Below are positions 10,111-46,268 of a stretch of 49,697 nt of DNA, in pieces (the first letter of the stretch is position 1; every line of letters begins with the position of its first letter). The position numbers and the translations under genes are program-made. This DNA is from an uncultured Bacillota bacterium (lineage in GTDB: Bacteria > Bacillota > Clostridia > Oscillospirales > Oscillospiraceae). The stretch is taken from assembly GCA_947573385.1 (NCBI GenBank), contig CANPFP010000006.1:1-49697 (forward strand), read 5' to 3'. Under the pieces are notes generated by a model that saw only the letters and a list, made by a program, of their open reading frames with translations, did not search any database and had not been told where the DNA came from.

Positions 10111-10135
10111 ATAATAGTAAAAGGAGAGATTATTT

Positions 10136-10549: not shown

Positions 10550-10552
10550 TTT

Positions 10553-11179
10553 ATGCTGGAGGTACGTCAGCTCTGCAAGAGCTATGGCGGCCGGCAGGTG
10601 CTTGCGCCCATCTGCTTTATGCTCCCGCCCGGCCAGTGCCTGGGCCTGGCGGGAAGCAACGGCTCCGGGAAGTCCACTCTGCTCCGGCTGATTGCCCAGA
10701 TTCAGCGGCCGGACAGCGGAGATATCCTGTTTCAGGGCCGCAGCGTTATGGGCGACCGCTCCTTCCTGCGCCGCCAGCTGGGCTACGTCCCCCAGAGCAG
10801 CCAGCTGGCCCGGGAGCTGACGGTCCGTCAGCAGCTCGCCCTGTGGCAGAGCGCCTGTGACCTCTCCGGTCCCCTGTCTCCCGACATTCTGGAGCTGCTG
10901 GGGCTGGAGCCCCTTCTGCCCATGCCAGTTCGGGCTCTGTCCGGAGGGATGGCCCAGCGGGTGAGCATCGCCATGGCGCTGCTGTCCCGCCCCCGGGTGC
11001 TGCTGATGGACGAGGCCACCTCCGGCCTTGACCAGGAGTACGTCCCCCGGCTGCTGGACTGGCTGGAGCGCTATGTGGCCGGCGGCGGCAGCCTTGTGTG
11101 GTGCAGCCACCACCCGGCAGAGCTGGACCGGCTGTGCGGCGCAGTCCTACGATTGGCAGACGGGAAATTGATTTCATAA
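10553..11179 (+). CDS. ABC transporter ATP-binding protein
   Basis: A 208-aa ATPase of the ABC-2 exporter class. Walker A GSNGSGKST, signature LSGGMAQR, Walker B VLLMDEATSGLD and the H-loop histidine in WCSHHP are intact. It is the only ATPase in the operon and is presumed to drive the two permeases encoded downstream. It is shorter than drug-exporter ATPases (about 300 aa) because it lacks their C-terminal extension. Confidence 0.94.
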   Translation: MLEVRQLCKSYGGRQVLAPICFMLPPGQCLGLAGSNGSGKSTLLRLIAQIQRPDSGDILFQGRSVMGDRSFLRRQLGYVPQSSQLARELTVRQQLALWQSACDLSGPLSPDILELLGLEPLLPMPVRALSGGMAQRVSIAMALLSRPRVLLMDEATSGLDQEYVPRLLDWLERYVAGGGSLVWCSHHPAELDRLCGAVLRLADGKLIS

Positions 11180-11204
11180 TTTTTGGAAAAAATGGAGGAT
11201 GCAC

Positions 11205-12974
11205 ATGTTTTGTCGAAATTGTGGAAGTGAAATGCGGGATGACGCAAAGTTTTGTCCCAACTGCGGCACGCTGAACAGCTCTGCCGCCGGAGAGCCCGAC
11301 GGCACCTCCGGGCCGGTCTGGTCCAGCTCAGGCGGTCAGGGCTGGAACACCCCGCCCCAGTCCCAGACCAGCGGCGACAGTCCGGCTGACGGCGGCAAGC
11401 AAAGCCGGCGGGGCCTTGGCCTGATGATTGGCGGAGGTGTTGCCGCCGTGGCAGTAATCGCCCTGCTGGTGGTAACGGTCAGCGGCCTGTTTGCCTCTCC
11501 CAAAAGCCGGGTGGACAAGGCGGTCTCTAAAACCATGTCTGCATACAGCGATGTGAATAAGGGCCTGGAAATGCCCGACATGAAGCAGCTGTGGGAGGAT
11601 AAATCCGTCAGCGTGAGAGCCAGCGTGGAGCTCAAGGATATCAACAGCCAGCTGGTGGGTTATGACCTGTCTGACCTCTACGGCCTGGGCGTGCGGATGA
11701 GCACCAACTACGACGGCAGCGCTCGCAAAATGGATGCGCAGCTGTCCGCCTTCTGGGACGACGAGGACATCGCCGCCCTCCAGATGCTGGCCGACGGGGC
11801 CAAGCTGTATTTCGGCTCCCCCCAATTCACCGGCGACACCTTTATCGGCATGAACACCGAAACTCTGGGCGCCGACCTGGCCGAGATGACAGGAGACAGC
11901 TCGGTTGAAGACATCAGCTTCAATATCTTTGAGCTGATGGACATCATCATGAGCACAGAGAGCGGCGAGGACTTCGAGAAAGCCATTCACGATGCCAACA
12001 AGACCCTCATGGACCAGATCGAGGCGGAGAAGGACGGCACCGAGGAGATTGAGGTCAACGGCGCCGACATAAAAGCCACCCTCTACAACGTGACCATCCC
12101 CCAGGATGCCCTGGAGGACTATGTGGAAACCCTGGAGGACGCTCTGTCCGCAGTGGACTATGTGGACATGTATGAGAGACTGTTCAAGGCCATGGGCATC
12201 CCCCAGGATGATATCGACTATATGATGGCTGACCTGGAGGACCTGGATATCTATGGCGAGCTGTTCGACGGTATCCGGTATGCGCTGGACGAGCTGGGCG
12301 ACCTGGACCTGGAGGTCTATGTCAGCCAGGGCCATATCTCCGCCGTCATCTACAAGGAAACAATCCAGGGCACCGAGGTAGAGATCGGCCTGTACCTGGG
12401 CGGCGGCGAAAAGGGCGACCAGTATGTGGACAACCTGAGCCTGGAGATCGAAATTGAGGGTGACAAGCTGGTGGTAGCGTCCAGCGGCAACCACACCGGC
12501 AAGGGCGGCAGCTACACCGACGAAACCACCCTCAGCCTTTTGGAGGGCGGCAGCAAAAGCCCCATGTTCCGCCTGACCTCCGACATGGAGTATGAGCCCA
12601 AGGGCAAGGGCAAGGGTGACAATTTCCAGTGGACCATTGACGTGGACGCCCCCGGCGCCAACGGCGCTGTTAAAATGGAGGGCCGGCTGACCACCAGCAA
12701 AAACTCTCTGGACCTGAAGCTGGATGACGTGTCGGTACATGTCATGGGCCTGAAGGTACTGTCTCTGGGCGTAGAATACTATGTCGGTCCCTGTGACGGA
12801 ATGGATATCAAGGTAAAGTCTCCCATGATGATTGCCGATATGGATGAGTATGACGCGCTAGAGCTGATTAGCGATATTGAGGATAATGCCGAGGACTGGG
12901 CTTATGACATGCAGGATTTATTGGGTTCCCGTCTCTCTGAGGAGCTGCTGTGGCAGCTGATGTACGCCTTTTGA
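11205..12974 (+). CDS. Zinc-ribbon single-pass membrane protein, unknown extracytoplasmic domain
   Basis: A 589-aa protein. ATG 11205 is preferred because GGAGG at 11194-11198 is 6 nt upstream; ATG 11199 abuts that site. The N-terminus MFCRNCGSEMRDDAKFCPNC matches the ribbon of the operon's first gene. A Ser/Gly/Gln-rich linker is followed by one membrane helix at about residues 70-96. The extracytoplasmic part is acidic and alternates helical stretches (LEDYVETLEDALSAVDYVD) with probable beta strands near the end. No catalytic motif is visible. The same topology as the first gene suggests that both span the membrane with cytoplasmic ribbons. Confidence 0.85.
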   Translation: MFCRNCGSEMRDDAKFCPNCGTLNSSAAGEPDGTSGPVWSSSGGQGWNTPPQSQTSGDSPADGGKQSRRGLGLMIGGGVAAVAVIALLVVTVSGLFASPKSRVDKAVSKTMSAYSDVNKGLEMPDMKQLWEDKSVSVRASVELKDINSQLVGYDLSDLYGLGVRMSTNYDGSARKMDAQLSAFWDDEDIAALQMLADGAKLYFGSPQFTGDTFIGMNTETLGADLAEMTGDSSVEDISFNIFELMDIIMSTESGEDFEKAIHDANKTLMDQIEAEKDGTEEIEVNGADIKATLYNVTIPQDALEDYVETLEDALSAVDYVDMYERLFKAMGIPQDDIDYMMADLEDLDIYGELFDGIRYALDELGDLDLEVYVSQGHISAVIYKETIQGTEVEIGLYLGGGEKGDQYVDNLSLEIEIEGDKLVVASSGNHTGKGGSYTDETTLSLLEGGSKSPMFRLTSDMEYEPKGKGKGDNFQWTIDVDAPGANGAVKMEGRLTTSKNSLDLKLDDVSVHVMGLKVLSLGVEYYVGPCDGMDIKVKSPMMIADMDEYDALELISDIEDNAEDWAYDMQDLLGSRLSEELLWQLMYAF

Positions 12975-12983
12975 TAATGTGAG

Positions 12984-14192
12984 ATGAGCAGACTGCGCTT
13001 TTTTGGAAAATTTACCTGTCTGACTCTGGGGAAGCTCTGCCAACAGCGTTGGCTGTTGGCAGAGCTTGTCCTTTTGTGCCTTCTTTTGCCCCTGGGAGCG
13101 GGCCAGGCGGCCGGCCACCTGCTCTCCCGGGGGGTGGAGTTCTCCGGTGTGACGCTGGCTGTCACCGCGCCGGAGGGGGACAATGTGCCCCAGCTGCTGG
13201 AACAGTACATGGGGGAGATGGAGGATATTGCCCAGTACTGCAAAATCGTATCCATGGACGGGGAGACGGCACTGGACGCCCTGCGCCGGGGTGAGATTAC
13301 CGCCGTACTGATGCTGCCGGAGCACTTTATCCAAGGGGTGATGTGGGGGGAGAACCCGGACCTGCGGCTGGTGGTGGCCGGAGACCGGCCGCTGGAGTCC
13401 CTGCTGCTGCTGTGGGTGGGCCAGAGCGCCAGCGACATTCTGTCCGCCTTTCAGAGCGGGGTGTACGCTGTGCTGGACCTCTACGAGGAGAACCCGCCCC
13501 CCGGTCTCACCCGGGACCAGGTCGTCCTTGACATCAACCTGCGCTACATCTCCCTGGCCACCGGCCGGTCCCATATGTTCCGGCCCGAGACCGTTCTGGC
13601 CACCCAGACGCTGCCCATCTCTCTGCATTACACCCTGGCCCTGGCCGCCTACTTTGCCCTGGCCGCCGCCCCGGTGTTTGTCCCTGTTTACAGCGGGGAC
13701 TGGCTCCGCTTCCAGCGCAGGCTGCGCTGCGTGGGCCGCGGGGTATCCGCCGGCTACTTCAGCGGCGTGTTTGCCGGGATTCCGGCGCTGCTTCTGCTGC
13801 TCTACCCCGCCCTGCTGATAACCGGAGCGGGAAGGCCCCTTCCTCTGCTGGGCGCCGCGCTGCTGATGTCCATATTCTGCTCGGTATTCTGCTCTCTGTG
13901 CTGCCTGGCCACGGGGAGCGCCGCCGGGTGCGGCGTGGCGGCCTTCGCGGTCTCCCTCCTCTCCCTGGCCCTGGCAGGGGGAATCATCCCGGCCGTACTT
14001 CTGCCCGGACCGGTGCGGCAGCTGAGCGGACTGTCTCCGGTGACCTGGCTGCTCCGGCTTGCCGCCTGGCCCATGGGGTATGAACTGCCCCTGACGGCCT
14101 GGCTTTGCCCGGCACTCTCCACGGCGGGAATGGCCGCCCTGGCCCTGGCCCTCTACCGCCGGCGGGTGGATTGTCAGGAGGTGGCGGTATGA
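12984..14192 (+). CDS. ABC-2 type permease (first of two)
   Basis: A 402-aa membrane protein. One N-terminal helix (residues about 22-42) is followed by a 150-residue extracytoplasmic segment with the pattern seen in ABC2_membrane_3 permeases (FSGVTLAVTAPEGDNVPQLL, LRRGEITAVLMLPEHF). At least five helices follow from about residue 215. The ribosome site is weak (TGAG), and the gene starts 9 bp after the preceding stop. It ends in an ATGA overlap with a second permease of similar plan, so the transporter is probably a heterodimer served by the single ATPase. Confidence 0.85.
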   Translation: MSRLRFFGKFTCLTLGKLCQQRWLLAELVLLCLLLPLGAGQAAGHLLSRGVEFSGVTLAVTAPEGDNVPQLLEQYMGEMEDIAQYCKIVSMDGETALDALRRGEITAVLMLPEHFIQGVMWGENPDLRLVVAGDRPLESLLLLWVGQSASDILSAFQSGVYAVLDLYEENPPPGLTRDQVVLDINLRYISLATGRSHMFRPETVLATQTLPISLHYTLALAAYFALAAAPVFVPVYSGDWLRFQRRLRCVGRGVSAGYFSGVFAGIPALLLLLYPALLITGAGRPLPLLGAALLMSIFCSVFCSLCCLATGSAAGCGVAAFAVSLLSLALAGGIIPAVLLPGPVRQLSGLSPVTWLLRLAAWPMGYELPLTAWLCPALSTAGMAALALALYRRRVDCQEVAV

Positions 14193-15310
14193 GCTTTTTC
14201 CTTGCGCTGTTTCAAAGCGGCCTGCGCACCCAGGCGGGCCGCCTGCGTACCTGGGCCCTGCTGTTTCTCCTGCCCCTGATGATCTTCGGGACCCGGACCC
14301 TCCTCCCCGCTCAGGAGGTGTCCACCCCCGTCCAGGTGGGTGTGGTACTTCCGGAAACCGGCGGCGAGGAATTCTGGTCCCGCCTGAACAGCCGCAGCGG
14401 CCTTGTCGTCACGTTTTATGAGACCGGTCTCGATCAGGCCCGGCGGCAGGTGGCCACAGGCCAGTGGGACTGTGCTCTGGTCCTCCCCCAGGACTTTTCC
14501 CTGCGCCTGTCCCGGCAGGACACCTACCAGCTCTTTACCCTGCTTACCGGCCCCGGCTCCACCGTATACCCCATGGTGCGGGAGACGGTATCCGCCTGCG
14601 TGGCCGAGTGCATCTCCCCCGGCATAGCGGAGCGTTATTTGCTGGACAGCGGCATCGCCAGCGGGTCCGGCAGTATGCAGCCCTGGCTAAATGAGGTCCT
14701 GCCGGAACAGGACCGCGTGCTCATCTCCATGGAGACGGCAGACGGGAGCCCCCTGGACCCCCTCGTCCTGGCGGACAGCGGGGTATCCAGCCTGCTGTCC
14801 GGGCTGACGGCCATCCTGCTGCTGATTTGGACGCTGCTCACCGCCATGGATTTGGGGCGCTGGCTGGACTCCCCCTTCGCTCAACGGCTGGTCCCTCTCC
14901 GTGGAACGCTGTCCCTTCTCCTGCCCCGGCTGGGGGCGTCGCTGGTACCCATTTTGTGTTCCGGGGCCCTGGCCCTGCTGGCGGCGGGGATGGCGCCTGC
15001 CTGTATGCTGGCGCTGATTCCCTACCTGCTGTTCTGGGGGGCGGCGGTCCTGGCCCTTGCCCGGCTGCGCCCCCTGTGGAGCGCCCTGCCCGCTGTGCTC
15101 CCCTCCGTTCCGGTGCTGGCCCTGCTACTGTCCCCGGTACTGTTGGACCTCTCCCTGCTGTTCCCCGCTCTGGGGCCCCTGATCCGCTGGACGCCCATCA
15201 CCCTCTATCTCCGCGCCTGCGGCGGTTCCTGGGGGGACGGGCTGGTACTGGCTGCAGGAGGGGCGGCTATTCTGGCTGTCCTGCTGGCCGCGGAGCAAAA
15301 AAAGGCATAA
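14189..15310 (+). CDS. ABC-2 type permease (second of two)
   Basis: A 373-aa permease with the same plan as its neighbour: N-terminal helix, extracytoplasmic segment (TPVQVGVVLPETGGEEF, TGQWDCALVLPQDF) and C-terminal helices. Start ATG 14189 overlaps the previous stop and has AGGAGGTGG in front; a longer frame from 14105 lies within the upstream gene and is rejected. The shared motif (C)ALxLPxxF in both permeases indicates an old duplication. It closes the six-gene operon, and a GC-rich inverted repeat without a T run lies at 15315-15343. Confidence 0.85.
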   Translation: MSFFLALFQSGLRTQAGRLRTWALLFLLPLMIFGTRTLLPAQEVSTPVQVGVVLPETGGEEFWSRLNSRSGLVVTFYETGLDQARRQVATGQWDCALVLPQDFSLRLSRQDTYQLFTLLTGPGSTVYPMVRETVSACVAECISPGIAERYLLDSGIASGSGSMQPWLNEVLPEQDRVLISMETADGSPLDPLVLADSGVSSLLSGLTAILLLIWTLLTAMDLGRWLDSPFAQRLVPLRGTLSLLLPRLGASLVPILCSGALALLAAGMAPACMLALIPYLLFWGAAVLALARLRPLWSALPAVLPSVPVLALLLSPVLLDLSLLFPALGPLIRWTPITLYLRACGGSWGDGLVLAAGGAAILAVLLAAEQKKA

Positions 15311-15390
15311 CAAAGCGGCCCGGTGGACTTCCCGCCGGGCCGCCAGTGCTTCAGGAGGAAAAAGAAGAAAACCTCTTATCCTTGGTCAAA

Positions 15391-15404
15391 ACGCCGTCCG
15401 GCGT
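15391..15404 (-). terminator. Short hairpin with TTTT on the minus strand
   Basis: ACGCC, loop GTCC, GGCGT, followed on the minus strand by TTTTG. It lies downstream of the small minus-strand gene ending at 15465. A second GC hairpin is next to it. Confidence 0.35.
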
Positions 15405-15464
15405 CTGAGACGGGGACCCGCCGCCGGTCCCCTCAGTCCATACTATGTCTCCGGCGGAGGATGG

Positions 15465-15740
15465 TCACAGCAAAAACAGCCAGGCCGCCCAGCCCGCCGA
15501 AGCCACCGCCGCCCCCAGCGCCCCCCAGGCCAGGGAGGGAAGACGCTCCAGCCGCCGGTTCCATGCCTTTCCCTGCTTGAGGTAGCCGTCAGCGGCCTGA
15601 CGGGCCTCCCGCAGCACCCGGTCGGCGCTCACCCCCTCCCGGGCCAGGGCCTCCTCTTTGACAATAAAAATGGCCTCCTCAAAGAGCCGGGGATCGGGGG
15701 ATTTTACCAAAATCACCTGCCGGGTGATACCCTTCACCAT
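15465..15740 (-). CDS. Small membrane protein, function unknown
   Basis: A 91-aa protein starting MVKGITRQVILVKSPDPRLF, with a C-terminal membrane helix (LAWGALGAAVASAGWAAWLF). ATG 15740 is preferred because AAGGGA is 10 nt upstream; the GTG at 15749 abuts it. The soluble part has a basic beta-like start and the helical pattern EEAIFIVKEEALAREGV. It lies downstream of gpr on the same strand with a 60-bp gap, so it may be co-expressed during sporulation. I do not recognise a characterised family. Confidence 0.75.
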   Translation of the reverse strand: MVKGITRQVILVKSPDPRLFEEAIFIVKEEALAREGVSADRVLREARQAADGYLKQGKAWNRRLERLPSLAWGALGAAVASAGWAAWLFLL

Positions 15741-15800
15741 GATAACCACATCCCTTTTCCATGTTTTCCTCTAGTCTGCCCCAATTCTGGAACATTATTC

Positions 15801-16691
15801 CTAACTCAGCAGTAGCTCCAGCTCCTCCAGAGAAATGCCCGGCTGGAGGGCCATGCTGATGCCGTAGCCAATCACCTTAGACAGGTCGTCCACCTGACTG
15901 TCAATATCCTTGGGGGTGACAAGCAGGTCCCGTCCCTCGTTCAGGTCGGGGGGCTCGTCAGTACCCAGCAGGTCGGCGGCCAGGGTGGCCCCATCCACCA
16001 CAGTGGGCACTCCCAGGGCGATCACGGGCACCCCCAGGGTGTCCCGGGTGAGACCCATACGGTGATTTCCCACCCCGGAGCCGGGGGTGATGCCGGTGTC
16101 GGCAATCTGAACAGTTTTGCACAGCCGCTTCAGCGACCGGGATGCCAGGGCATCCACCGCCACCACACAGGCGGGCTTGATCTTCTCACACACCGCCCGC
16201 ACCAGCTCGCCGCTCTCCATCCCGGTGTTGCCCATTACCTCCGCCGTAACGGAAGCCACCGGCCGCAGGGCGCCGAAGTGCTCGGGCATCTGACGAATCA
16301 GGTGACGGGTGACCAGGGTGTTCTGGTGGACCTTGGGACCCACAGCGTCGGGGGTAATGGCCCGGTTGCCCAGGCCGGCCACCAGCACCAGACCGGCGGG
16401 GGGAACATCCCGGAGCAGCTGTCCGATTTCGCCGGCCACCGCCCGGACCGCGCGCTGGAAAATGCCTTCCTCCCGGCTGGCCAGCCCCTCAAGGGTGAGG
16501 GTGACGTAGCTGCCCCGGGGCTTGCCCAGGGCCGTCTCCCCCTGCCCGTCCAGCACACGTACGGTGTTTACCGGAATGCCCTCCCGAAGGCTGTCCCAGG
16601 CCTCTACCCCCGGCAGGGCGGAGGTGACCCCCGACCGCTCCTGCCACAGCTCTCTGGCCTCCAGCGCCAGGTCGGTCCGTCTCATGCGCAT
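15801..16691 (-). CDS. gpr: Germination protease GPR
   Basis: A 296-aa spore endopeptidase that degrades small acid-soluble spore proteins after germination. The start RRTDLALEA is typical, since the zymogen cleavage region of GPR lies at such a sequence. Family stretches include VLVAGLGNRAITPDAVGPK, VTAEVMGNTGMESGELV, VVAVDALASRSLKRLCKTVQ and TGITPGSGVGNHR. Length is slightly below Bacillus GPR (about 370 aa) because the C-terminal part is shorter. An AAGGGGG site precedes ATG 16691; ATG 16685 is possible. It is divergent from rpsT, a common gene order in Firmicutes. Its presence shows that the organism can form spores or descends from spore formers. Confidence 0.96.
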   Translation of the reverse strand: MRMRRTDLALEARELWQERSGVTSALPGVEAWDSLREGIPVNTVRVLDGQGETALGKPRGSYVTLTLEGLASREEGIFQRAVRAVAGEIGQLLRDVPPAGLVLVAGLGNRAITPDAVGPKVHQNTLVTRHLIRQMPEHFGALRPVASVTAEVMGNTGMESGELVRAVCEKIKPACVVAVDALASRSLKRLCKTVQIADTGITPGSGVGNHRMGLTRDTLGVPVIALGVPTVVDGATLAADLLGTDEPPDLNEGRDLLVTPKDIDSQVDDLSKVIGYGISMALQPGISLEELELLLS

Positions 16692-16801
16692 GACTGTTTT
16701 CCCCCTTATGCAATATGTTGTGGAATCATTTTCCTTGCCGCCCTAGTTTTTGCGGCTTTTGAAAAACTATCCCGCACCGGCAAAAAAAATCAAAAAAACA
16801 G

Positions 16802-16830
16802 TTGATTTTTTGCCTGAAGGATGGTACAAT
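16802..16830 (+). promoter_or_regulatory. Sigma-A promoter of rpsT
   Basis: TTGATT (16802-16807), 17 bp, TACAAT (16825-16830). The leader to the ribosome site is about 40 nt. Confidence 0.8.
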
Positions 16831-16892
16831 ACAAATCTGCATGGGTGTATTGCCGCCCAAATCAAGGATGAAAATCGGAGGAGGTGTTTGGT

Positions 16893-17156
16893 TTGCCGAA
16901 TATTAAGTCTGCTAAAAAGCGCGTTCTGGTGTCTCAGGCCAAGGCCGCTCAAAACAAAGCCGCGAAGTCCGCGCTGAAGACCGAGCTCAAGAAGTTTGAG
17001 GCCGCAGTGGCGGAAGGCAACCGCAGCGAGGCCGATGTCGCTTACAAGGTGGCCGTCAAGGCGGTGGACAGGGCCGCTGCCCGGGGCCTGCTGCACCGGA
17101 ACAACGCTGCCAACAAGAAGAGCAAAATGACGCTCAAGCTGAGCAAGCTGGGTTGA
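16893..17156 (+). CDS. rpsT: 30S ribosomal protein S20
   Basis: An 87-aa ribosomal protein binding 16S rRNA. The N-terminus PNIKSAKKRVLVSQAKAAQN and the end LHRNNAANKKSKMTLKLSKL are diagnostic. The start is TTG 16893, giving the canonical MPNIKSAKK, with GGAGGAGG at 16877-16884 and 8 nt spacing. The upstream in-frame GTG overlaps the ribosome site and is rejected. TTG starts on rpsT are known in other bacteria and may keep translation low for autoregulation. Confidence 0.97.
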   Translation: MPNIKSAKKRVLVSQAKAAQNKAAKSALKTELKKFEAAVAEGNRSEADVAYKVAVKAVDRAAARGLLHRNNAANKKSKMTLKLSKLG

Positions 17157-17170
17157 GTATGCACGAAAGC

Positions 17171-17200
17171 AAAGCCGTCTGATATGCAGGCGGCTTTTTT
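17171..17200 (+). terminator. Terminator of rpsT
   Basis: AAAGCCGTCTG (17171-17181) pairs with CAGGCGGCTTT (17187-17197) with one G-U pair, followed by a T run to 17200. Confidence 0.9.
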
Positions 17201-17256
17201 CGTATTTGTTTTTGCGGGGGTATGTGGTAGAATAACCGGCGGACCCCATCGTGTAG

Positions 17257-17320
17257 GGACCATCATGATGCATCCGCTTTCGTAGATTTTATGCAGGGGC
17301 GGACGCTTCGTGAAGCGTCC
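17257..17320 (+). repeat. Twin palindromic repeat, locus A
   Basis: Two GGAC...TCC palindromes lie 25 bp apart: a decayed ATC/GAT type at 17257-17275 and a near-perfect TTC/GAA type GGACGCTTCGTGAAGCGTCC at 17301-17320. GTAGGG lies at the left edge and CCCTAC at the right. Related pairs occur at 34717 and 44492. The unit ends 25 bp before the next start codon. Confidence 0.8.
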
Positions 17321-17345
17321 CTACTGGATGAAAGGAGACCCGACT

Positions 17346-18200
17346 ATGAAAAAATTTCTCTCTCTTCCCCCGGTCTCCTTTGCGGTGGAGACGGCGGAGC
17401 TCTACCTGCGGGTGGGGGCGGCCCGGGCGGCGGCGGCGCTGTCCTACTTTCTCATTTTGACCCTCTTCCCTCTGCTGGTATGCGTCAACTACTTCATCGG
17501 CCTGTTCCACCTGGACCTGGAAAACCTCCTCCAGTCGCTGGACCAGATTCTGCCCGCCGAAGCGCTGGCGGTAATACAGGACTATCTCAGCTATGTGGCG
17601 GGCAGTCAGTCGGACGCACTGCTGCTGGCCAGCCTGATTACCATATTTATCTCCGCCTCGGCGGGGCTGCGCACCCTGCTGGCCGCCATGGACGAGCTGC
17701 ACGGCGCTTCTGCCCCCCGGCCCTTCCGGCGGGCGGTGCTCAGTGTGGGCCTGTCCGCCCTGTTCCTCCTCACCGTCTACCTTTCGGTGGTGGTCATCTT
17801 CACCGGCGAGTGGTTTTTCTGGCTGCTGGAGGAGCATCTGCCCCGGTATATGATCGAGCACATCCCCCTGTCCGCCCTGTCCGGGCTGTGGCGGTGGATG
17901 CGCTACCTGCTGCTGTTCTGCTTTGTGCTGATGCTGGTGCTTATCGTCTACCGGGCGGGGACGCCCCGGGGCGCCATGCGCCGGCCGGTGGTGCTGCTGG
18001 CCTCCCTGCTGGCCGCCGTGGCCATTGTGGGGGCGTCGGTGCTGTTTTCCTGGTTTATCGGGATGTCCTCCCGCTATGCCCTGGTCTATGGGTCGCTGGC
18101 CTCCCTGATTATCCTGCTGGTGTGGCTCTACCTGTGCGGCAATCTGCTGCTGCTGGGGGCGGTGGTGGGCCGGGTGCTGGAGGACAGGCTGAAGGAATAA
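17346..18200 (+). CDS. YihY/BrkB family membrane protein
   Basis: A 284-aa protein with six predicted membrane helices. The features RVGAARAAAALSYFLILTLFPLLV near the start, SASAGLRTLLAAMDELHG and the end YGSLASLIILLVWLYLCGNLLLLGAVV are family signatures (formerly mis-named RNase BN). ATG 17346 follows AAAGGAG with good spacing; the longer frame from 17310 lies in the palindromic repeat. The biochemical role of the family is not settled. Confidence 0.92.
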   Translation: MKKFLSLPPVSFAVETAELYLRVGAARAAAALSYFLILTLFPLLVCVNYFIGLFHLDLENLLQSLDQILPAEALAVIQDYLSYVAGSQSDALLLASLITIFISASAGLRTLLAAMDELHGASAPRPFRRAVLSVGLSALFLLTVYLSVVVIFTGEWFFWLLEEHLPRYMIEHIPLSALSGLWRWMRYLLLFCFVLMLVLIVYRAGTPRGAMRRPVVLLASLLAAVAIVGASVLFSWFIGMSSRYALVYGSLASLIILLVWLYLCGNLLLLGAVVGRVLEDRLKE

Positions 18201-18205
18201 AAACA

Positions 18206-18223
18206 GCGCCGGAAAACCGGCGC
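18206..18223 (+). terminator. Hairpin between convergent genes
   Basis: GCGCCGG, loop AAAA, CCGGCGC, followed on the plus strand by CGCCTTTAT. It is short but well placed, 5 bp after the BrkB-type stop and before the stop of the convergent small ORF. Confidence 0.5.
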
Positions 18224-18235
18224 CGCCTTTATACG

Positions 18236-18376
18236 CTATTGGTCCGTCCCGGAGGACTCCGGCTCAGAGGCGTTGATGTACAGCTCCTCGCAGTCGCGCT
18301 GGGCTTTGATGAGAACGTTCATGGCCTCCTCGGTGGCACGGACCATGGTGCAGTACATCTCTTGGTAATCCGGCAT
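18236..18376 (-). CDS. 46-aa conserved-looking small protein
   Basis: ATG 18376 follows GAGGGTGG. The product MPDYQEMYCTMVRATEEAMN continues with NVLIKAQRDCEELYINA and an acidic Ser-rich tail. It reads as an amphipathic helix, not random sequence, and resembles short proteins I recall from clostridial genomes. A longer frame reaching back to 18661 crosses an RNA-like hairpin region and is Cys-rich and implausible there. Function is unknown. Confidence 0.6.
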   Translation of the reverse strand: MPDYQEMYCTMVRATEEAMNVLIKAQRDCEELYINASEPESSGTDQ

Positions 18377-18424
18377 AACGATAACCACCCTCAAGGGGCA
18401 GCCCTCAGGCTGCTTCCCTGTTTT

Positions 18425-18511
18425 CTCGACGGTTCCGCCCGCGGGGGGAGTGCACAGGGGGATAGGTGAGGAAAAAATTATGACTCCCCCCCCGCAGGTT
18501 TTCCCGTCGAG
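18425..18511 (-). other. Long two-part hairpin upstream of the small ORF
   Basis: An outer 8-bp stem CTCGACGG/CCGTCGAG (18425-18432, 18504-18511) and an inner 11-bp G/C stem (18441-18451 with 18483-18495) are separated by an 8-nt internal loop on each side, with a 31-nt AT-containing apical loop. On the minus strand it would be in the 5' leader of the 46-aa gene. It does not match a riboswitch that I recognise. Confidence 0.5.
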
Positions 18512-18583
18512 ACAAACAAAAGCGATGCAGAATTTAACAAATCCCACACCGCATATATCAGACACAAAACCCCAAAACCAGAC

Positions 18584-18612
18584 TTGTAAACGGGAGGAAA
18601 ATCTGGTATAAT
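18584..18612 (+). promoter_or_regulatory. Sigma-A promoter of a candidate small RNA
   Basis: TTGTAA (18584-18589), 17 bp, TATAAT (18607-18612). No open reading frame with a ribosome site follows for more than 400 bp. Confidence 0.75.
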
Positions 18613-18618
18613 AGGGAC

Positions 18619-18705
18619 TGGTGCAGCAATGCTGTTGTGTGGGTGCTGTTTTCACCCGCACAGGGGTACGGGGTGGTCTAGGCCCCGTGCCCTGCCCTTT
18701 TATTT
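18619..18705 (+). ncRNA. Candidate small RNA of about 85 nt
   Basis: Downstream of a consensus promoter lie a small CAGC/GCTG hairpin, a 10-bp hairpin TGTGTGGGTG/CACCCGCACA (18636-18645, 18653-18662) and a terminator-like hairpin GGGTACGGGG/CCCCGTGCCC (18664-18673, 18683-18692). TTTTATTT follows at 18698-18705. Start and end are estimates. It lacks the conserved GGAAG/GCAGCC core of SRP RNA and the tmRNA or RNase P motifs, so its class is unknown. Confidence 0.6.
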
Positions 18706-18777
18706 GTCTCTGGTTTCTATTGTAACATGGTTTGTCGAAAAATACAAGATTTATTTCGAATTATTTCATACTAAATT

Positions 18778-18807
18778 CGGGCGGCCTGTGGCCGCCCGCG
18801 TTTTTTT
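18778..18807 (+). terminator. Strong GC hairpin with T7
   Basis: CGGGCGGCC, loop TGT, GGCCGCCCG, then CG and seven T. The arms are perfect. It acts as a second stop for the small-RNA transcript or for read-through. The core GGCCTGTGGCC recurs at 26158-26168. Confidence 0.85.
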
Positions 18808-18825
18808 CCGGACCAGCCAGCGCCG

Positions 18826-18919
18826 AAAAGCCCCCCTTGCTAAAGGGGGGAGGGCCGCCGGACGCAGTCCGGTGGCGGGGGGATTCCGTTCACCTTCCCC
18901 TTTGGGGGAGGGCTTTTTT
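18826..18919 (+). repeat. MITE-like 94-bp inverted-repeat element
   Basis: The ends AAAAGCC (18826-18832) and GGCTTTT (18911-18917) are inverted, and the interior contains CCCCCC..GGGGGG stretches and a central hairpin GCCGGAC/GTCCGGTGGC. The whole can fold into one long imperfect hairpin. Its style matches the non-coding palindromic repeats common in gut Clostridia. It carries no ORF. The remaining sequence to 19037 shows only a weak promoter (TATGCT preceded by TTTCCA). Confidence 0.65.
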
Positions 18920-19037
18920 CGCTTTCGGGCGCTGCATTTTCTCTGCCCGCGCCCTTTCCAAACCCCTGAAAATGTGCTATGCTTATCCTGAGAAAATTTC
19001 GCCGCTCCACAGCTGGGGCGGCTGATGGGGTGACAGT

Positions 19038-40768: not shown

Positions 40769-41035
40769 TCAATCTTTTACTTGCTGGCAGAACTCCGATT
40801 TGCGGAACAGAGACCGCAGCAGAACGATCCACCCCCAGGAGACCGACAGGGCGGGCAGGCAGGAGAGGAGGATGGCCTTCACCGGATGGATTTCGGTGAA
40901 GCAGATGGGGCCGAAGAACATGATAAAGAGGACCACCATCATCACCAGCAGGGTAATCTGCTCCCGGCGGGTGTTGGGAGGGGTAAGAAAAATTTTTTTC
41001 AGGTCCATCTCCACGCGGACAACTTCTTTTTTCAT
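40769..41035 (-). CDS. Small two-helix membrane protein of the lyase operon
   Basis: An 88-aa protein starting MKKEVVRVEMDLKKIF with two membrane helices (about 27-45 and 50-73), the first starting QITLLVMMVVLFIMFFGPIC. It starts directly at the lyase stop, so it is co-translated. It could help the transporter or be a membrane component of unknown role; I do not recognise the family. Confidence 0.75.
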   Translation of the reverse strand: MKKEVVRVEMDLKKIFLTPPNTRREQITLLVMMVVLFIMFFGPICFTEIHPVKAILLSCLPALSVSWGWIVLLRSLFRKSEFCQQVKD

Positions 41036-41036
41036 A

Positions 41037-42569
41037 TCAGCTCAGTGCTCCTGTCACCTGTTCGGCCACCCGGATCAGTCCGCCCGAGTGGATAAAGTCT
41101 TTCAAATACTCGATGTAGGGGTGGAGGAAGATGTCCTTCTCCATCACCGGCACCGTCCTGCCGATCTCGGCCAGCACCGCCGCTGTGGCGGGGGCGCGGG
41201 CCACGTCCGGGTCCACAAATTGCTGCACCTCATACACGCTGAGCAGCTCGATGGCCAGCATGTACTCCAGCTTCTCCGCCATGGGGCCCGCCTTTTTACA
41301 GGCGTTGTAGCCCATGGCCACGTAGTCCTCCTGGTTGCCGCAGGTGGGGGTGTTGTCAATGGTGGAGGGGGTGGCCAGCATCCGCATCTCGTTGAGGAGA
41401 CCGGCCTGGACGTACTGGGGGATCATCAGCCCGGAGTTCAGCCCCGGATTTTTGATGCAGAAGTAGGGGTAGCCCGACAGAGAGCCGTCCACAATGCGGT
41501 TGTTCCGCCGCTCGGACATCTTCGCCAACCCCACGGCGGCGATGCAGGCGCTGTCCATCTCCATGCCCACATAGGCGGAATCGGCGTTGCAGGCAGAGAT
41601 CACGTCCTCGTTGCCCGTCTCGGGCCAGATGATGGGGTTGTCGCAGCAGGAGTTCATCTCAATCTCGATGGTCTTCTTCGCGTCCTCCAGGGTCTTCCGG
41701 GCCGCGCCGTGGAGCTGGGGGATGCACCGCAGGGACAGGGCGTCCTGCACCCGGCTGCCCCGGTACTTCTCCATAATGCCCGACCCCTTGAGCATCCGGC
41801 GGACGTTCTCCGAAGCGTTGAGCTGGTCAGGGTGGGGCCGGACGGCCATCACCCGGGGGTCAAAGGCGTTGATAACCCCCTTCATGGCCTCCAGGGACAT
41901 GGCCCCCACGATATCGGCGGACTTGGCGGCGTTGAGCATGTCATAGAGTGCCAGGCCGGCCATAGCGGTGGCGGAGGTGGTACCGGACACCAGGGCCAGG
42001 CCCTCCTTGGAGCTGAGCTCCATGGGCTCCATCCCGGCCCGGGCCAACGCCTCGGCCCCCTCCAACAGCTCGCCGTTGTAGTAGGCCTTCCCCCGGCCCA
42101 GCAGCACCAGGGCCATATGGGCCTCGGGGGAGAGGTAGCCCACGCTGCCGTCTCCGGGGGCGTAGGGGGTCAGACCGGCGTTGAGGAAGTCCCGGTATTT
42201 TTCCAGCACGCACATCCGCACGCCGCTGTACCCCTGGCCGATGTTTTGCAGCACCATAAGCATGATGCCCCGTACCCGCTCCACGCTCAGGGGCTCGCCC
42301 ACCGAGACGGAGTGGGACAGGATGATGTTCTCCTGGAGCTGGGCGGTGGCCTCCTTGTCGATGGCCTTGGTACACAGGGCTCCGAAGCCGGTGGTGACGC
42401 CGTACATCACCCGCTCCTCCTCCACCCACTGCTCCACCAGAGCCCGGGAGCGGTTTACACGGGCTACGTATTCCGGGGAAAACGCCACCTTCCGCCCGAA
42501 CCGGGCCACGGAGACGAAGTCCTCCAGGGTGATGGGCTCACCCAGTACAAGCGTTTTCATCTCTTCCAT
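41037..42569 (-). CDS. Histidine ammonia-lyase homologue lacking the MIO triad; candidate ergothionase
   Basis: A 510-aa member of the HAL/PAL fold. YGVTTGFG (56-63), AVRPHPDQ (242-249), VQDALSLRC (274-282) and EMNSCCDNPII (304-314) align with histidine ammonia-lyase. In HAL the stretch GSVG-ASGD-LAPLAHM supplies the Ala-Ser-Gly that cyclises into MIO. Here it is GSVGYLSPEAHM (141-152): the four residues ASGD are missing. The Asn of the NGT motif is Ser195. MIO-free family members eliminate a better leaving group; ergothionase removes trimethylamine from ergothioneine. The transporter next door handles betaine-type compounds, which fits. The specific substrate is inferred. Confidence 0.85.
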   Translation of the reverse strand: MEEMKTLVLGEPITLEDFVSVARFGRKVAFSPEYVARVNRSRALVEQWVEEERVMYGVTTGFGALCTKAIDKEATAQLQENIILSHSVSVGEPLSVERVRGIMLMVLQNIGQGYSGVRMCVLEKYRDFLNAGLTPYAPGDGSVGYLSPEAHMALVLLGRGKAYYNGELLEGAEALARAGMEPMELSSKEGLALVSGTTSATAMAGLALYDMLNAAKSADIVGAMSLEAMKGVINAFDPRVMAVRPHPDQLNASENVRRMLKGSGIMEKYRGSRVQDALSLRCIPQLHGAARKTLEDAKKTIEIEMNSCCDNPIIWPETGNEDVISACNADSAYVGMEMDSACIAAVGLAKMSERRNNRIVDGSLSGYPYFCIKNPGLNSGLMIPQYVQAGLLNEMRMLATPSTIDNTPTCGNQEDYVAMGYNACKKAGPMAEKLEYMLAIELLSVYEVQQFVDPDVARAPATAAVLAEIGRTVPVMEKDIFLHPYIEYLKDFIHSGGLIRVAEQVTGALS

Positions 42570-42584
42570 CTCAAAATACCTCGT

Positions 42585-44162
42585 TTATGCTTCAATCTGG
42601 TCCACGCTGTCCACAATATCCTTTTTGGTCTCGGGGTCGAAGAAGAACACCTTAAAGGCGGCCGCCACCTGGAAGATGAACACCACCAGCACCACGAAGC
42701 CGCCGCAGGCCGCCAGGTACTTCACGCCGTCCACGCCCTGGGCGCCGCCGCCGAAGGCCACCATGACGCAGGCGATCACGCCGATGGACACGCCCCAGAT
42801 GATCTTCTGCCAGATGGCGGGTTCCTCGTCGTGGCGGGCCCCCTTGGTACACAGGGCGGCGATGGTGGTGGACATGGTATCCGCCGTGGTAGAGAAGGCG
42901 GCAATCAGAGCCAGGATGATAACAGGAATGATAATCATACCCAGGGGGACGTTCTTGAGGAACTCCCACAGGCCGGTGGTGGCCCCGCCCGCCTGAATGG
43001 CGGAGATGATGTCGGCGCTGCCGCTCTTTTGCCACTCCAGGGCGGTGGAGCCCCACACGGAGAACCACACAAAGCCGAAGGAGGCGGGCAAAATCCAGTT
43101 GACGATAAGGAACTGGCGCACGGTGCGGCCGTAGGCGATGATGGCGAAGAAAATTCCCATCAGGGGGGCGTAGGCAATCCAGATGGCCCAGTCATACATG
43201 GTCCACCAGGTGACCAGGGCGGAGCCGCCCACGGTGTAGGGGTCGAAGCCCCACATCCAGAACCGGTCCAGCCAGTAGCCCAGGCCCACATTGGCCATGT
43301 TCAGGATGTAGATGGTGGGACCGATCACAAACAGCAGGACCAGCAGCACATAGAAAATCTTGGAGGTCAGACCGGCCAGCCACTTGATGCCCTTGTCGAT
43401 GCCGGTGACCGAGGCGATGGTAAAGGTGATGGTGATGATTGCGGTGAGGGCGACCCAAACGATGGGGCCCTGCTCCACGCCGTAGGCGGAGTAAAGGCCG
43501 GAGCCGATAAGGGCCAGGCCGGCGCCCAGAGAGGAGGCCAGGCCCAGAGCGATGGCCAGCACGGACAGCACATCCACCAGCACCACCCAGATGCCCTGGG
43601 TCACCTTCTCCCCAAAGATGGGGGTGAGGGAGGCGGCCACAGACAGCTGCTTTTTGCGGTTGAAGTACATGTAGGCAATGAGCACGCCGGACAGGGCGTA
43701 CATGGCGTAGGGGATAAAGGTCCAGTTGTAGAAGCAGCGGCCCATGGCGAACAGCTCCGCCTCCTGGGTCAGGGGGGTGATGCCGTAGCCATCCAGTTCG
43801 CCGTAGATGTTGCCGTAGTAGATGAGCACCTCGTTGACGCCGTAGGTAATCAGGCCGGTGGCGATGCCGCCGGTGAGGGTCATGGCAAACCAGGAGCCGA
43901 AGGAGTGCTTGGCTTTGGCCTCCGGGCCGCCAAAGCGAATCTTGCCCACCTTGGTGAACAGCAGCAGGGCGGCCAGCAGCAGGGTGACCATGGCCACGAT
44001 CTGGTACAGCCATCCGAAGGTGCTCAGCGACCAGTCGAACATGGTGTAGGTCACGCTGGTCAGCCAGCTGTTGTTGACGATGCCCAGCAGGGCCGCGCCG
44101 CCGATAACCACAAAGCAGGGGATGAATACATCCCAGCGGATCGGCTTGTTCTCATGTTTCAT
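42585..44162 (-). CDS. BCCT family (betaine/carnitine/choline-type) transporter
   Basis: A 525-aa membrane protein with twelve predicted helices. Family marks include GGIATGLITYGVNEVL in the unwound helix, the tryptophan-rich WWTMYDWAIWIAYAPLMG, followed by the AYGRTVRQF motif, and the FSTTADTMSTT end region. The aromatic box is changed relative to BetP (YDWAIW), which suggests another substrate. BCCT proteins import compounds with a trimethylammonium group. ATG 44162 follows GGAGAG; the leader contains an 8-bp hairpin (44173-44196). The lyase gene starts 15 bp after its stop, so import and cleavage are coupled. The longer frame to 44381 covers the promoter and is not used. Confidence 0.93.
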   Translation of the reverse strand: MKHENKPIRWDVFIPCFVVIGGAALLGIVNNSWLTSVTYTMFDWSLSTFGWLYQIVAMVTLLLAALLLFTKVGKIRFGGPEAKAKHSFGSWFAMTLTGGIATGLITYGVNEVLIYYGNIYGELDGYGITPLTQEAELFAMGRCFYNWTFIPYAMYALSGVLIAYMYFNRKKQLSVAASLTPIFGEKVTQGIWVVLVDVLSVLAIALGLASSLGAGLALIGSGLYSAYGVEQGPIVWVALTAIITITFTIASVTGIDKGIKWLAGLTSKIFYVLLVLLFVIGPTIYILNMANVGLGYWLDRFWMWGFDPYTVGGSALVTWWTMYDWAIWIAYAPLMGIFFAIIAYGRTVRQFLIVNWILPASFGFVWFSVWGSTALEWQKSGSADIISAIQAGGATTGLWEFLKNVPLGMIIIPVIILALIAAFSTTADTMSTTIAALCTKGARHDEEPAIWQKIIWGVSIGVIACVMVAFGGGAQGVDGVKYLAACGGFVVLVVFIFQVAAAFKVFFFDPETKKDIVDSVDQIEA

Positions 44163-44226
44163 GTTTCTCTCCGTATGCGGCGAAAGGACCGCATACTCTC
44201 CTTTCTTTACAGTCTGGCTTTTTATG

Positions 44227-44243
44227 AAGCAACCGCCGGGCCA
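44227..44243 (-). promoter_or_regulatory. Sigma-54 (-24/-12) promoter of the transporter-lyase operon
   Basis: On the minus strand TGGCCCGGCGGTTGCTT: GG and GC are exactly 10 nt apart, and the site matches TGGCACG-N4-TTGC with one change. It points to the transporter, 65 bp upstream of its ATG, and a sigma-54 activator gene is divergent. Confidence 0.75.
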
Positions 44244-44384
44244 AAGAGAGGAAAATGAAGAAAGTTCCCGAAACTTTGTGTCACCTGCACGAATAAGCCG
44301 CGTCTGATTTATGCAAAACAACCGAGATATGCTTTGAAGCTTGGGGGAGACTTTGGGTGATAAGCGTGATTTTACCGGCACCGA

Positions 44385-44421
44385 CGCAAAATAATTTTGC
44401 GATCTGCAAATTATTATTGCA
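44385..44421 (+). promoter_or_regulatory. Tandem dyads, likely activator binding sites
   Basis: CGCAAAATAATTTTGCG (44385-44401) is a perfect 17-bp palindrome. TGCAAATTATTATTGCA (44405-44421) is a second 17-mer with 5-bp arms. Centres are 20 bp apart, two helical turns. They lie about 150 bp upstream of the -24/-12 promoter, the normal distance for an enhancer, and directly before the activator's own -35 box, so autoregulation is possible. Confidence 0.65.
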
Positions 44422-44427
44422 TATGGA

Positions 44428-44456
44428 TTGACAGCGGCCCGGGATTCCGGTACACT
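44428..44456 (+). promoter_or_regulatory. Sigma-A promoter of the sigma-54 activator gene
   Basis: TTGACA (44428-44433), 17 bp, TACACT (44451-44456). Confidence 0.75.
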
Positions 44457-44491
44457 GGCAGGGACACCTTGGAAATCGGCCTTGTCAATGC

Positions 44492-44570
44492 GGACGCTTC
44501 ATGAAGCGCCCTTACGGGTCTTCTGCTGCGGAGGTTTTGAGCTCTCTGCAGGGACGCATATGATGCGTCC
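44492..44570 (+). repeat. Twin palindromic repeat, locus C
   Basis: GGACGCTTCATGAAGCGCCC (44492-44511) and GGACGCATATGATGCGTCC (44552-44570). The order of the two types is reversed relative to loci A and B. It lies in the leader of the activator gene, 45 bp before the start codon. Confidence 0.8.
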
Positions 44571-44615
44571 CTCCCGCCCGGCGGGCGAAATCACAGCGAA
44601 AGGGGAGGACTTTCC

Positions 44616-46268
44616 ATGCTCTATGACATTCTGTTTACGCTGGACCCCTCAGACTGCTTCTGCGCGGTGGCCTGGGGCAGCCGGGAGACGGAGGACCTGT
44701 ACCGGGACCTCTTTGAGAGCTGGGCTGCCGCCCGGCGGCCGGTGCGCACCGCCTTTGCCCTCCCACAGGAGGGTGACAGCGGGGCGCTGGTCTGGGAGGA
44801 GAACACCTTTCATTTTCAGCTCCTCCCCGCTCCCGAGGGCGGGCGCTGGCTGCTCCTCAAGCGGGAGGACAACCGGCCCTATCTCCTGGCCCGGGCCCTG
44901 GACCAGGTCACCGACGGGGTGCAGATTTATGACAAAAACGCCTGCGCGGTCTACTTCAACCGGTCCAGCCGGGGCATCTCCCACATTCCCAGCGGGGTGA
45001 GCGTAGAGGGGCGGCACCTGCTGGACCTGTACAACCTGGACGAGACCATCAGCACCACCATGACCGCCCTCCAGACCCAGGCCCCGGTGATCGACCGGGT
45101 GGACAGCTTCCGGGCCAATGACTTCAGCACCGCCCCCATCGCCTCGGCCAACACCTCCTATCCCATCTTCCGAGAGGGGGAGCTGCTGGGGGCGGTGGTC
45201 TTTGAGCAGACGGCGGAGATTGTGGAGCGGAATATGAAAAAAATGGAGGCCACCGGGAAGGCGCTGTCCGCCTTCTCTCAGAGACCTCCAAAGATCAGTT
45301 TTTCCGGCTATACCTTTGACAATGTGATTGGCAGCTGCCCCAAGCTGCGGGAAGCGGTGGAGCTGGCCCGGCGGGTGGCCCCCCAGGACAGCCCCATTCT
45401 TCTGGTGGGGGAAACGGGGACGGGCAAGGAAATCTTCGCCCAGAGCATCCACCGCTCCAGCCGCCGCCGGAGTGGGAAGTTTCTGGCCATTAACTGCGCC
45501 GCCGTCCCGGAGACGCTGATCGAGAGCCTTCTGTTCGGCACCAAAAGGGGCAGCTTCACCGGCAGCGAGGACAAGGCGGGCTACCTGGAGGAGGCCGCCG
45601 GGGGCACCCTGTTTCTGGACGAGCTCAACTCCATGAGCCTGGCTATGCAGTCCAAAATTCTGCGGGTCCTCCAGGAAAAGACCTTCCGCCGGGTGGGGGG
45701 CAGTCAGGACCTGCGGCTGGATGTGCGGGTGATCTCCTCCTGCAACGAGGACCCCTTCAAGGCCGTGGCGGAAAACACCTTCCGCCGGGACCTGTTCTAC
45801 CGGCTGTCCACCGTGATGATCGAGCTGCCCCCCCTCCGGGAGCACCTGGAGGACCTGGAGGAGCTGATCCGCTACCACCTGGAGGCCACCGCCTACCAGT
45901 TTGTCCACGCCGTCACCCGGATCGACCCGGAGGTCATCGCCGTCCTGCGGGCCTACCACTGGCCTGGCAATGTGCGGGAGCTGTTCCACGTGCTGGACTA
46001 CGCCCAGAATGTTACCGACTCCCAGGTGATGGAGGTCCGGCATCTGCCCCCCTACCTGCTGAAACACCACAGCGAGCCCGCCGCCGCCCTCCCCGCGATT
46101 GACTTTTCCCGGGAAACCCTCCAGGGCCTGATGGACGAGTATGAGAAGCAGGTCATCGCCCAGGCGCTGGACCACTGCGGCTATAATATCTCCCGCACCG
46201 CCCAGACCCTGGGCGTCCTCCGTCAGAGCCTGCAATACCGGATTCGGAAATATGGATTGATTTTTTAG
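44616..46268 (+). CDS. Sigma-54-dependent transcriptional activator (PAS, AAA+, Fis HTH)
   Basis: A 550-aa enhancer-binding protein. The N-terminal 220 residues contain a PAS-like sensor (ALDQVTDGVQIYDKNACAVY). The AAA+ core has GETGTGKE (265-272), a GAFTGA loop in the variant form GSFTGS (312-317), and TLFLDELNSM (331-340). A Fis-type helix-turn-helix ends the protein (YNISRTAQTLGVLRQSLQYR). It is divergent from the BCCT-lyase operon and is the probable activator of its -24/-12 promoter; the PAS domain may sense the imported compound. GGGGAGG precedes ATG 44616. Confidence 0.94.
   Translation: MLYDILFTLDPSDCFCAVAWGSRETEDLYRDLFESWAAARRPVRTAFALPQEGDSGALVWEENTFHFQLLPAPEGGRWLLLKREDNRPYLLARALDQVTDGVQIYDKNACAVYFNRSSRGISHIPSGVSVEGRHLLDLYNLDETISTTMTALQTQAPVIDRVDSFRANDFSTAPIASANTSYPIFREGELLGAVVFEQTAEIVERNMKKMEATGKALSAFSQRPPKISFSGYTFDNVIGSCPKLREAVELARRVAPQDSPILLVGETGTGKEIFAQSIHRSSRRRSGKFLAINCAAVPETLIESLLFGTKRGSFTGSEDKAGYLEEAAGGTLFLDELNSMSLAMQSKILRVLQEKTFRRVGGSQDLRLDVRVISSCNEDPFKAVAENTFRRDLFYRLSTVMIELPPLREHLEDLEELIRYHLEATAYQFVHAVTRIDPEVIAVLRAYHWPGNVRELFHVLDYAQNVTDSQVMEVRHLPPYLLKHHSEPAAALPAIDFSRETLQGLMDEYEKQVIAQALDHCGYNISRTAQTLGVLRQSLQYRIRKYGLIF

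Follow-up and report, generated by a model that had tools for sequence, protein, structure and literature searches.

A 49,697-nt contig from an uncultured Bacillota bacterium of the family Oscillospiraceae (CANPFP010000006.1 of assembly GCA_947573385.1; hereafter the window) encodes a lyase of the histidine ammonia-lyase (HAL, or HutH) family that lacks the tripeptide forming the 4-methylideneimidazole-5-one (MIO) electrophile. From its sequence and from the gene neighborhoods of this lyase and its relatives, we conclude that this enzyme is probably a hercynine trimethylamine-lyase, converting hercynine to urocanate and trimethylamine (TMA), and that the module around it (a BCCT-family transporter, the lyase, a small membrane protein, and a divergent sigma-54-dependent activator) is probably a hercynine catabolic unit. 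Hercynine is Nα,Nα,Nα-trimethyl-L-histidine, or histidine betaine, and is widespread in fungi, actinobacteria, and cyanobacteria. More broadly, we lean slightly towards the view that trimethylamine-lyases arose from histidine ammonia-lyase on two occasions, giving ergothionase in one case and, in the other, an unnamed MIO-free hercynine lyase that feeds the histidine pathway, is partly misannotated as HutH, and provides a hercynine-to-TMA route in gut Clostridia.

In the proposed mechanism, the BCCT transporter would import hercynine and the lyase would hold its imidazole as HutH does. With trimethylamine itself as the leaving group, MIO would not be needed to activate it, and the loss of Tyr280 and Phe329 (numbering of Pseudomonas putida HAL throughout) would make room for the three methyl groups. 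The products would be urocanate, which would enter the ordinary Hut route where present, and TMA, which would leave the cell. The activator would switch the unit on upon sensing a ligand of this class. Because a MIO-free lyase, a trimethylammonium-class transporter, and a sigma-54 promoter with its activator form one module, elimination of TMA is likely by comparison. An earlier account of this DNA, drawn from its letters alone (the sequence-only reading), had likewise proposed betaine import and TMA release; comparison supports that part but not the suggestion of ergothioneine as the betaine. Under six names tried, our literature search turned up no hercynine lyase or hercynine degradation, and it gave no report of lyase activity on hercynine to urocanate, within a coverage that leaves out most subscription journals; studies of ergothioneine published in ACS Catal (2022), JACS (2025), and Cell Host Microbe (2025) may already describe one.

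Active-site residues of the lyase

The lyase gene (41037-42569, minus strand) encodes 510 aa with a PF00221 Lyase_aromatic match of 542 bits, and HutH is its nearest family by sequence. Against solved structures it scores 297 bits to HAL 7tqr and 181 bits to ergothionase 6s7j, and the protein falls just under both NCBIfam HutH cut-offs (515.9 versus 524 and 497.3 versus 539.15). Residues 141-152, which by their numbering correspond to 42114-42149 on the minus strand, read GSVGYLSPEAHM in place of the GSxGASGDLAP of MIO enzymes. An alignment to P. putida HAL shows no counterpart of the A142-S143-G144 tripeptide, which bears out the earlier remark that the ASGD stretch is missing. Asn195 is replaced by Ser, and two further substitutions, which that account had not mentioned, turn Tyr280 into Leu and Phe329 into Ala. 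The HutH imidazole and carboxylate residues Tyr53, His83, Gln277, Arg283, Met382, and Glu414 are all retained, and position 386 is Tyr. We take these six residues, together with Tyr280 and Phe329, to bind or act in HAL, the last two in a catalytic role. An AlphaFold model of this protein (mean pLDDT 77, pTM 0.83, 8 sequences) is mostly helical, but because loop residues 142-144 fall in its low-confidence parts and more than one subunit contributes to each active site in the HAL family, we draw no conclusion from it.

To place these changes in the family, we classed 153 distinct sequences by loop and pocket. Ninety-two are of the MIO type, 44 have the loop of the window lyase with Leu280 (Y-loop/Leu280), seven have the same loop with Tyr280 (clade B), six have an ergothionase-like loop with Lys386 (E-loop/Lys386), and four have an E-loop without Lys386. 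The Y-loop is therefore kept in 51 distinct sequences, which argues that it is not a chance feature. Asn195, Tyr280, and Phe329 are present in all 92 MIO enzymes. Across the 44 Y-loop/Leu280 sequences, the six retained site residues are invariant, Tyr386 accompanies His83, Met382, and Glu414 in every one, and Phe329 is replaced in 42.

Placement among MIO-free enzymes

After dropping 24 near-duplicate or surplus rows, we built a tree from 67 proteins, using neither the loop nor five columns of the active site; its midpoint root serves for drawing only. The 31 Y-loop rows form one branch (support 100/96), and the nine E-loop rows, including Treponema denticola ergothionase, form another (100/99). 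Each is a single group in all 200 bootstrap trees. A larger quick tree (82 rows) is concordant; 8 rows were omitted from it, as were those shorter than 450 aa and the majority of the MIO-type proteins from loci L105-L146. One protein counted as clade A, that of L180 (the same gene as in L213), falls with clade B. MIO was likely lost independently in the Y-loop and ergothionase lineages, as the trees favor, although a joint clade of all MIO-free enzymes is not rejected by an approximately unbiased (AU) test (p 0.234).

This placement bears directly on whether the lyase is itself an ergothionase, the module importing ergothioneine and releasing TMA and thiourocanate, as the sequence-only reading had it. 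That account is now unlikely. The window lyase does share with ergothionase 6s7j the loss of MIO, Ser195, and Leu280; BCCT genes also stand beside three ergothionase-type loci (L055, L212, and L214), and the AU test keeps one clade of both MIO-free types. The two nonetheless sit in separate tree groups, and the window enzyme combines Met382 with Tyr386 where all six E-loop/Lys386 enzymes have Gly, Ala, or Ser at 382. Lys386 presumably has a functional role in ergothionase. Moreover, separate E-loop/Lys386 genes co-occur with a Y-loop enzyme in the genomes of L035/L055, L039/L053, L073/L214, and L075/L215 and in that of L212, making five genomes, or six when a divergent Polaromonas Lys386 protein is counted (L099/L216; loop GVAD, Arg83, Val280). 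The Hut neighbors described below are of the urocanate type. Alignment against both ergothionase and HutH, which the earlier account had named as the comparison that could overturn it, puts the lyase in another MIO-free group, with a joint clade not rejected by the AU test. On tree, pocket residues, and neighbors, we rejected an ergothionase identity for the window lyase.

Transporters and Hut enzymes beside Y-loop lyases

The transporter gene (42585-44162, minus strand; 525 aa) lies in an open reading frame open to 44381, and the stretch 42585-44309 matches PF02028 at 361 bits (cut-off 27). We moved its start to ATG 44162, the likeliest position and the one used in close relatives L034 and L036. 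Among solved structures, the 42585-44162 product scores best to 8zw8, a trimethylamine transporter (205 bits), and to BetP (194 bits). It shares 58-64% identity with the BCCTs that accompany the Y-loop lyases of Bacillus, Alkalihalobacillus, and Clostridium mobile, and 33% with those of L040, L055, L070, and L077.

Neighbors were counted for 43 clade-A lyase genes, that is, the Y-loop genes minus six of clade B, with L207 (a duplicate of L073) and L056 dropped and truncated loci kept. Of the 43, 26 have a BCCT or OpuBC-type gene within 6 kb, compared to none of 79 MIO-only lyases (Fisher p 1.7e-15, ignoring kinship and with truncated loci included). In Paenibacillus, the lyase instead adjoins an unrelated ATP-binding cassette (ABC) transporter of the glycine-betaine class (145 bits to the OsmF model, cut-off 400; 315 to the ProV model, cut-off 326.6). 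Two unrelated transporter families of the betaine class, BCCT and OsmF/ProV-like ABC, thus occur beside Y-loop lyases. Other carriers found there are an MFS protein in L206 and an SNF-type symporter in L043.

HutU is encoded within 6 kb of nine of the 43 clade-A lyases, accompanied by HutI in eight of these loci and by HutG in seven. The nine loci come from Bacillus, Alkalihalobacillus, Acinetobacter, Paenibacillus, and Polaromonas and from genomes found by searches from those; their lyases are 52-62% identical to that of the window, except in Paenibacillus and Polaromonas (40-42%). Seven full-length HutU proteins (L076, L078, L079, L087, L200, L201, and L206) score 988-1020 bits to the NCBIfam hutU model (cut-off 375) and stay below the cut-offs of the models for thiourocanate hydratase (680-718 against 930) and S-methyl thiourocanate hydratase (703-744 against 880). 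The hutU gene of L099 is split over reading frames, its larger piece scoring 559 to hutU and 415-416 to both thiourocanate-type models, and the ninth HutU, in L205, is a urocanase by Pfam alone. HutI is above its cut-off in each of the six loci for which it was scored (L076, L078, L079, L087, L201, and L206), and HutG is so in L078 but not in L079 (222 versus 229), L206 (223), or L076 (184). Because these neighbors fit urocanate models and not thiourocanate ones, the expected product is urocanate, in place of the thiourocanate-type compound proposed earlier. In Acinetobacter sp. ANC 4558, one contig carries a MIO-type HutH and an upstream urocanase end, and another carries hutU-hutI-hutG, a glutamate-dehydrogenase-like gene, and the Y-loop enzyme.

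A quality-matched comparison within the genus (at least 90% complete, at most 5% contaminated) finds urocanase in all five lyase-holding genomes (G003, G007, G014, G020, and G022) versus 12 of 26 others, among which the search for the lyase did not extend to genomes from G068 upward. The urocanase of the five may serve histidine use instead.

Trimethylated histidine is the simplest nameable compound that meets both a quaternary-amine transporter and a urocanate product. The Hut neighbors indicate the product and not the leaving group, and another histidine derivative giving urocanate, such as Nα-mono- or dimethylhistidine or, by dehydration, imidazole-lactate, would suit them too; a HisQM-type amino-acid ABC transporter in Polaromonas L099 and its relative L204 also speaks for such a substrate. 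We nevertheless consider it improbable, given the BCCT or OpuBC-type partner in 26 of 43 loci. Secondary and tertiary amines are also poorer leaving groups without MIO. Hercynine is known to occur naturally and has been detected in saliva and blood of humans (PMC6272924). A MIO-independent histidine ammonia-lyase or a HutH homolog without catalysis is very improbable: NCBIfam does name the Paenibacillus and Polaromonas proteins HutH above cut-off, but Tyr280, universal among the 92 MIO enzymes, is Leu in all 44 Y-loop/Leu280 sequences, in which six site residues stay invariant, so the site is not decaying, and Paenibacillus has a betaine-type transporter and Acinetobacter a separate MIO-type HutH.

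Evidence weighing against hercynine

Several observations weigh against hercynine as the substrate. At the window locus itself, the lyase is linked to a transporter, and linkage to urocanate catabolism is seen only in relatives: no HutU was found within 6 kb of the remaining 30 clade-A genes, among them that of the window (a HutU-like gene lies 6.7 kb away in L081), or of four further loci from the set of genomes that gave the nine (L199, L202, L203, and L204). Urocanase was found neither in the window genome, which is 81% complete, nor in its 98% relative G016. The window organism might excrete urocanate, reduce it, or degrade it with genes missing from the assembly. As for the pocket, Phe329 is kept in two Leu280 proteins, L180 and the hut-linked L206. 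Position 195 varies, being Ser in 33 and Asn in 11 of the 44 Y-loop/Leu280 sequences. The sequence-only reading was correct that Ser replaces the Asn of the NGT motif, but the residue is not diagnostic, and we dropped it as a hallmark. The seven clade-B enzymes keep both Tyr280 and Phe329, from which it follows that MIO loss alone does not imply a trimethylammonium substrate.

The transporters are also less than decisive. The HisQM-type system of L099 and L204 takes the place of a betaine-class carrier. An OpuC-like ABC transporter, EgtU, is specific for ergothioneine rather than hercynine (PMC9732360), and because it belongs to a related class, transporter class alone cannot decide between the two compounds. 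The Y-loop lyase of L212 shares one cluster (9250-18925) with a DcuC-type carrier, a Lys386 ergothionase-type gene, xanthine-dehydrogenase-type genes, and a BCCT gene that lies between the lyase and the Lys386 gene. An OpuBC-type gene and broken HutH and HutU pieces near the E-loop gene of L216 blur a clean division of labor, and the AU result does the same for a clean separation of Y-loop enzymes from ergothionases.

Module layout and predicted regulation

Open reading frames and Pfam matches confirm the gene order of the sequence-only reading: BCCT transporter, lyase, and small membrane protein on the minus strand, with the activator divergent. Fifteen nucleotides separate the BCCT stop from the lyase start, and a single nucleotide separates the lyase stop from the start of the small protein (40769-41035, minus strand). 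The latter has 88 aa and two likely membrane spans, as read by eye, and matches nothing in Pfam or NCBIfam. Its homologs occur within 3 kb of 17 of the 43 clade-A lyases, compared to none of 81 MIO lyases.

The activator (44616-46268, plus strand; 550 aa) has a sigma-54 interaction domain (Sigma54_activat, 210 bits) and a Fis-type helix-turn-helix (HTH_8); its top NCBIfam score is to PrdR (344 bits, cut-off 795). Members of the same family lie within 6 kb of 18 of the 43 clade-A lyases, compared to one of 79 MIO-only lyases. A -24/-12 promoter, TGGCCCGGCGGTTGCT (44228-44243, minus strand), stands 66 nt upstream of the BCCT ATG. It is the sole match to TGGCMYN5TTGCT in the window, where 0.18 are expected and at least one match arises in 16 of 100 shuffles. 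A scan of ten BCCT genes placed sigma-54-type sites near the start of eight, the other two being the window's own, where the site is present when counted from ATG 44162, and the ergothionase-side BCCT of L055, near which no -24/-12 site was found. Sigma-54 factor genes occur near the modules of seven relatives (L035, named by Pfam, and L037, L039, L040, L042, L068, and L070). The promoter and activator are a predicted regulatory pair controlling the module.

The window makes up contig C6 of a genome assembled at 2.53 Mb into 244 contigs. Other contigs of this genome encode two further family members: a MIO-type protein above both HutH cut-offs (C130) and a second MIO-free protein (C74).

Distribution and other family members

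Close orthologs of the window lyase (69-98% identity, one a partial match) were found in 10 genomes of the same genus among 60 relatives searched. Across 391 genomes of the class, nine have matches at E 1e-150; four of these (L182-L185) are of the MIO type, leaving the Y-loop enzyme in five, the window's included. Among the best 80 of more than 584 matches, Y-loop holders include Clostridium mobile, Geosporobacter subterraneus, Bacillus sp. FJAT-14578, Alkalihalobacillus sp. BA299, Acinetobacter sp. ANC 4558, Paenibacillus eucommiae, Polaromonas sp. P2-4, and metagenome-assembled genomes (MAGs) from animal gut and rumen, and a Lawsonibacter MAG holds a partial copy 96% identical to the window lyase. 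In the groups sampled, close relatives are rare: with the center genome counted, 3 of 16 in the Bacillus family and 4 of 249 in the Acinetobacter family (E 1e-130), and 2 of 349 in the Polaromonas order and 1 of 296 in the Paenibacillus order (E 1e-150). Two observations from these genomes speak for the hercynine assignment: a MIO-type, a Lys386 ergothionase-type, and a Y-loop enzyme occur together in Clostridium mobile and again in Geosporobacter, in keeping with a division of labor, and in Paenibacillus eucommiae the Y-loop enzyme is the sole PF00221 match.

A second MIO-free Y-loop group, in which Asn195, Tyr280, and Phe329 are kept, is represented by L046 (G000:C74; 4162-5724), L044, L045, L070 (7734-9290), and L077 (12361-13929). 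SSF symporters neighbor it in L044 and L046, and a sigma-54 activator with a -24/-12 site in L044-L046; in L070 and L077 it stands alongside a clade-A lyase and a BCCT gene. An ergothionase-like subgroup has Asn or Asp in place of the Lys, and Leu195 (L053, 4788-6305 and 6345-7880; L057, 5781-7208; L071, 802-2313); in L057 the gene adjoins an aconitase-X gene and a 3-hydroxyacyl-CoA-dehydrogenase-type gene. A further ergothionase-like match (G007:C1:3361771-3363090) contains one in-frame TGA, which may mark a broken gene or codon recoding. In L056 (6297-8532, minus strand), a Lyase_aromatic protein extends over two reading frames, with the C-terminal half upstream of the N-terminal half and GSTGLSDLAP for the MIO stretch.

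Xanthine-dehydrogenase-type molybdenum hydroxylase genes, below the NCBIfam XdhA cut-offs where scored, lie by the ergothionase-type gene in L055, L053, L212, L214, and L215, which suggests that the breakdown of ergothioneine or thiourocanate involves an oxidation.

Implications

If the assignment is correct, gut TMA would have a source missed by surveys of ergothionase similarity, such as that in PMC13405746, and these enzymes would offer a natural experiment on how a lyase does without an electrophile of its own when the group to be expelled leaves readily. They also pose an annotation problem, as two MIO-free proteins (L087, 7106-8620; L099, 8980-10497) score above the NCBIfam HutH cut-offs and would be annotated as histidine ammonia-lyase. 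Outside the gut, PMC4595634 gives a cyanobacterium as a source of histidine betaine and reports that none of the isolates used the compound, yet it was depleted in intact biocrust. The lyase is a testable candidate for its consumption there.

Comparison with known systems

The window transporter resembles known BCCT proteins (BetP, CaiT, and 8zw8) in family and length and falls under the cut-offs of the five NCBIfam models listed for it. With HutH (P. putida, PDB 1gkm), its nearest family, the lyase shares the imidazole and carboxylate residues and the expected product urocanate; it differs in the loss of the MIO tripeptide, Tyr280, and Phe329, in its betaine-type transporter neighbors, and in scoring below the HutH cut-offs. 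With ergothionase (T. denticola, PDB 6s7j/6s7q) it has in common the HAL family, the missing tripeptide, Leu280, and, in the window copy, Ser195. The ergothionase loop reads GEGD, whereas that of the Y-loop enzymes reads GYL; Lys386 with a small residue at 382 stands against Tyr386 with Met382; and the five ergothionase-type loci adjoin molybdenum-hydroxylase genes, whereas Y-loop relatives adjoin hutU-hutI-hutG. The enzyme is most likely a variant of the MIO-free trimethylamine-lyase kind, represented so far by ergothionase.

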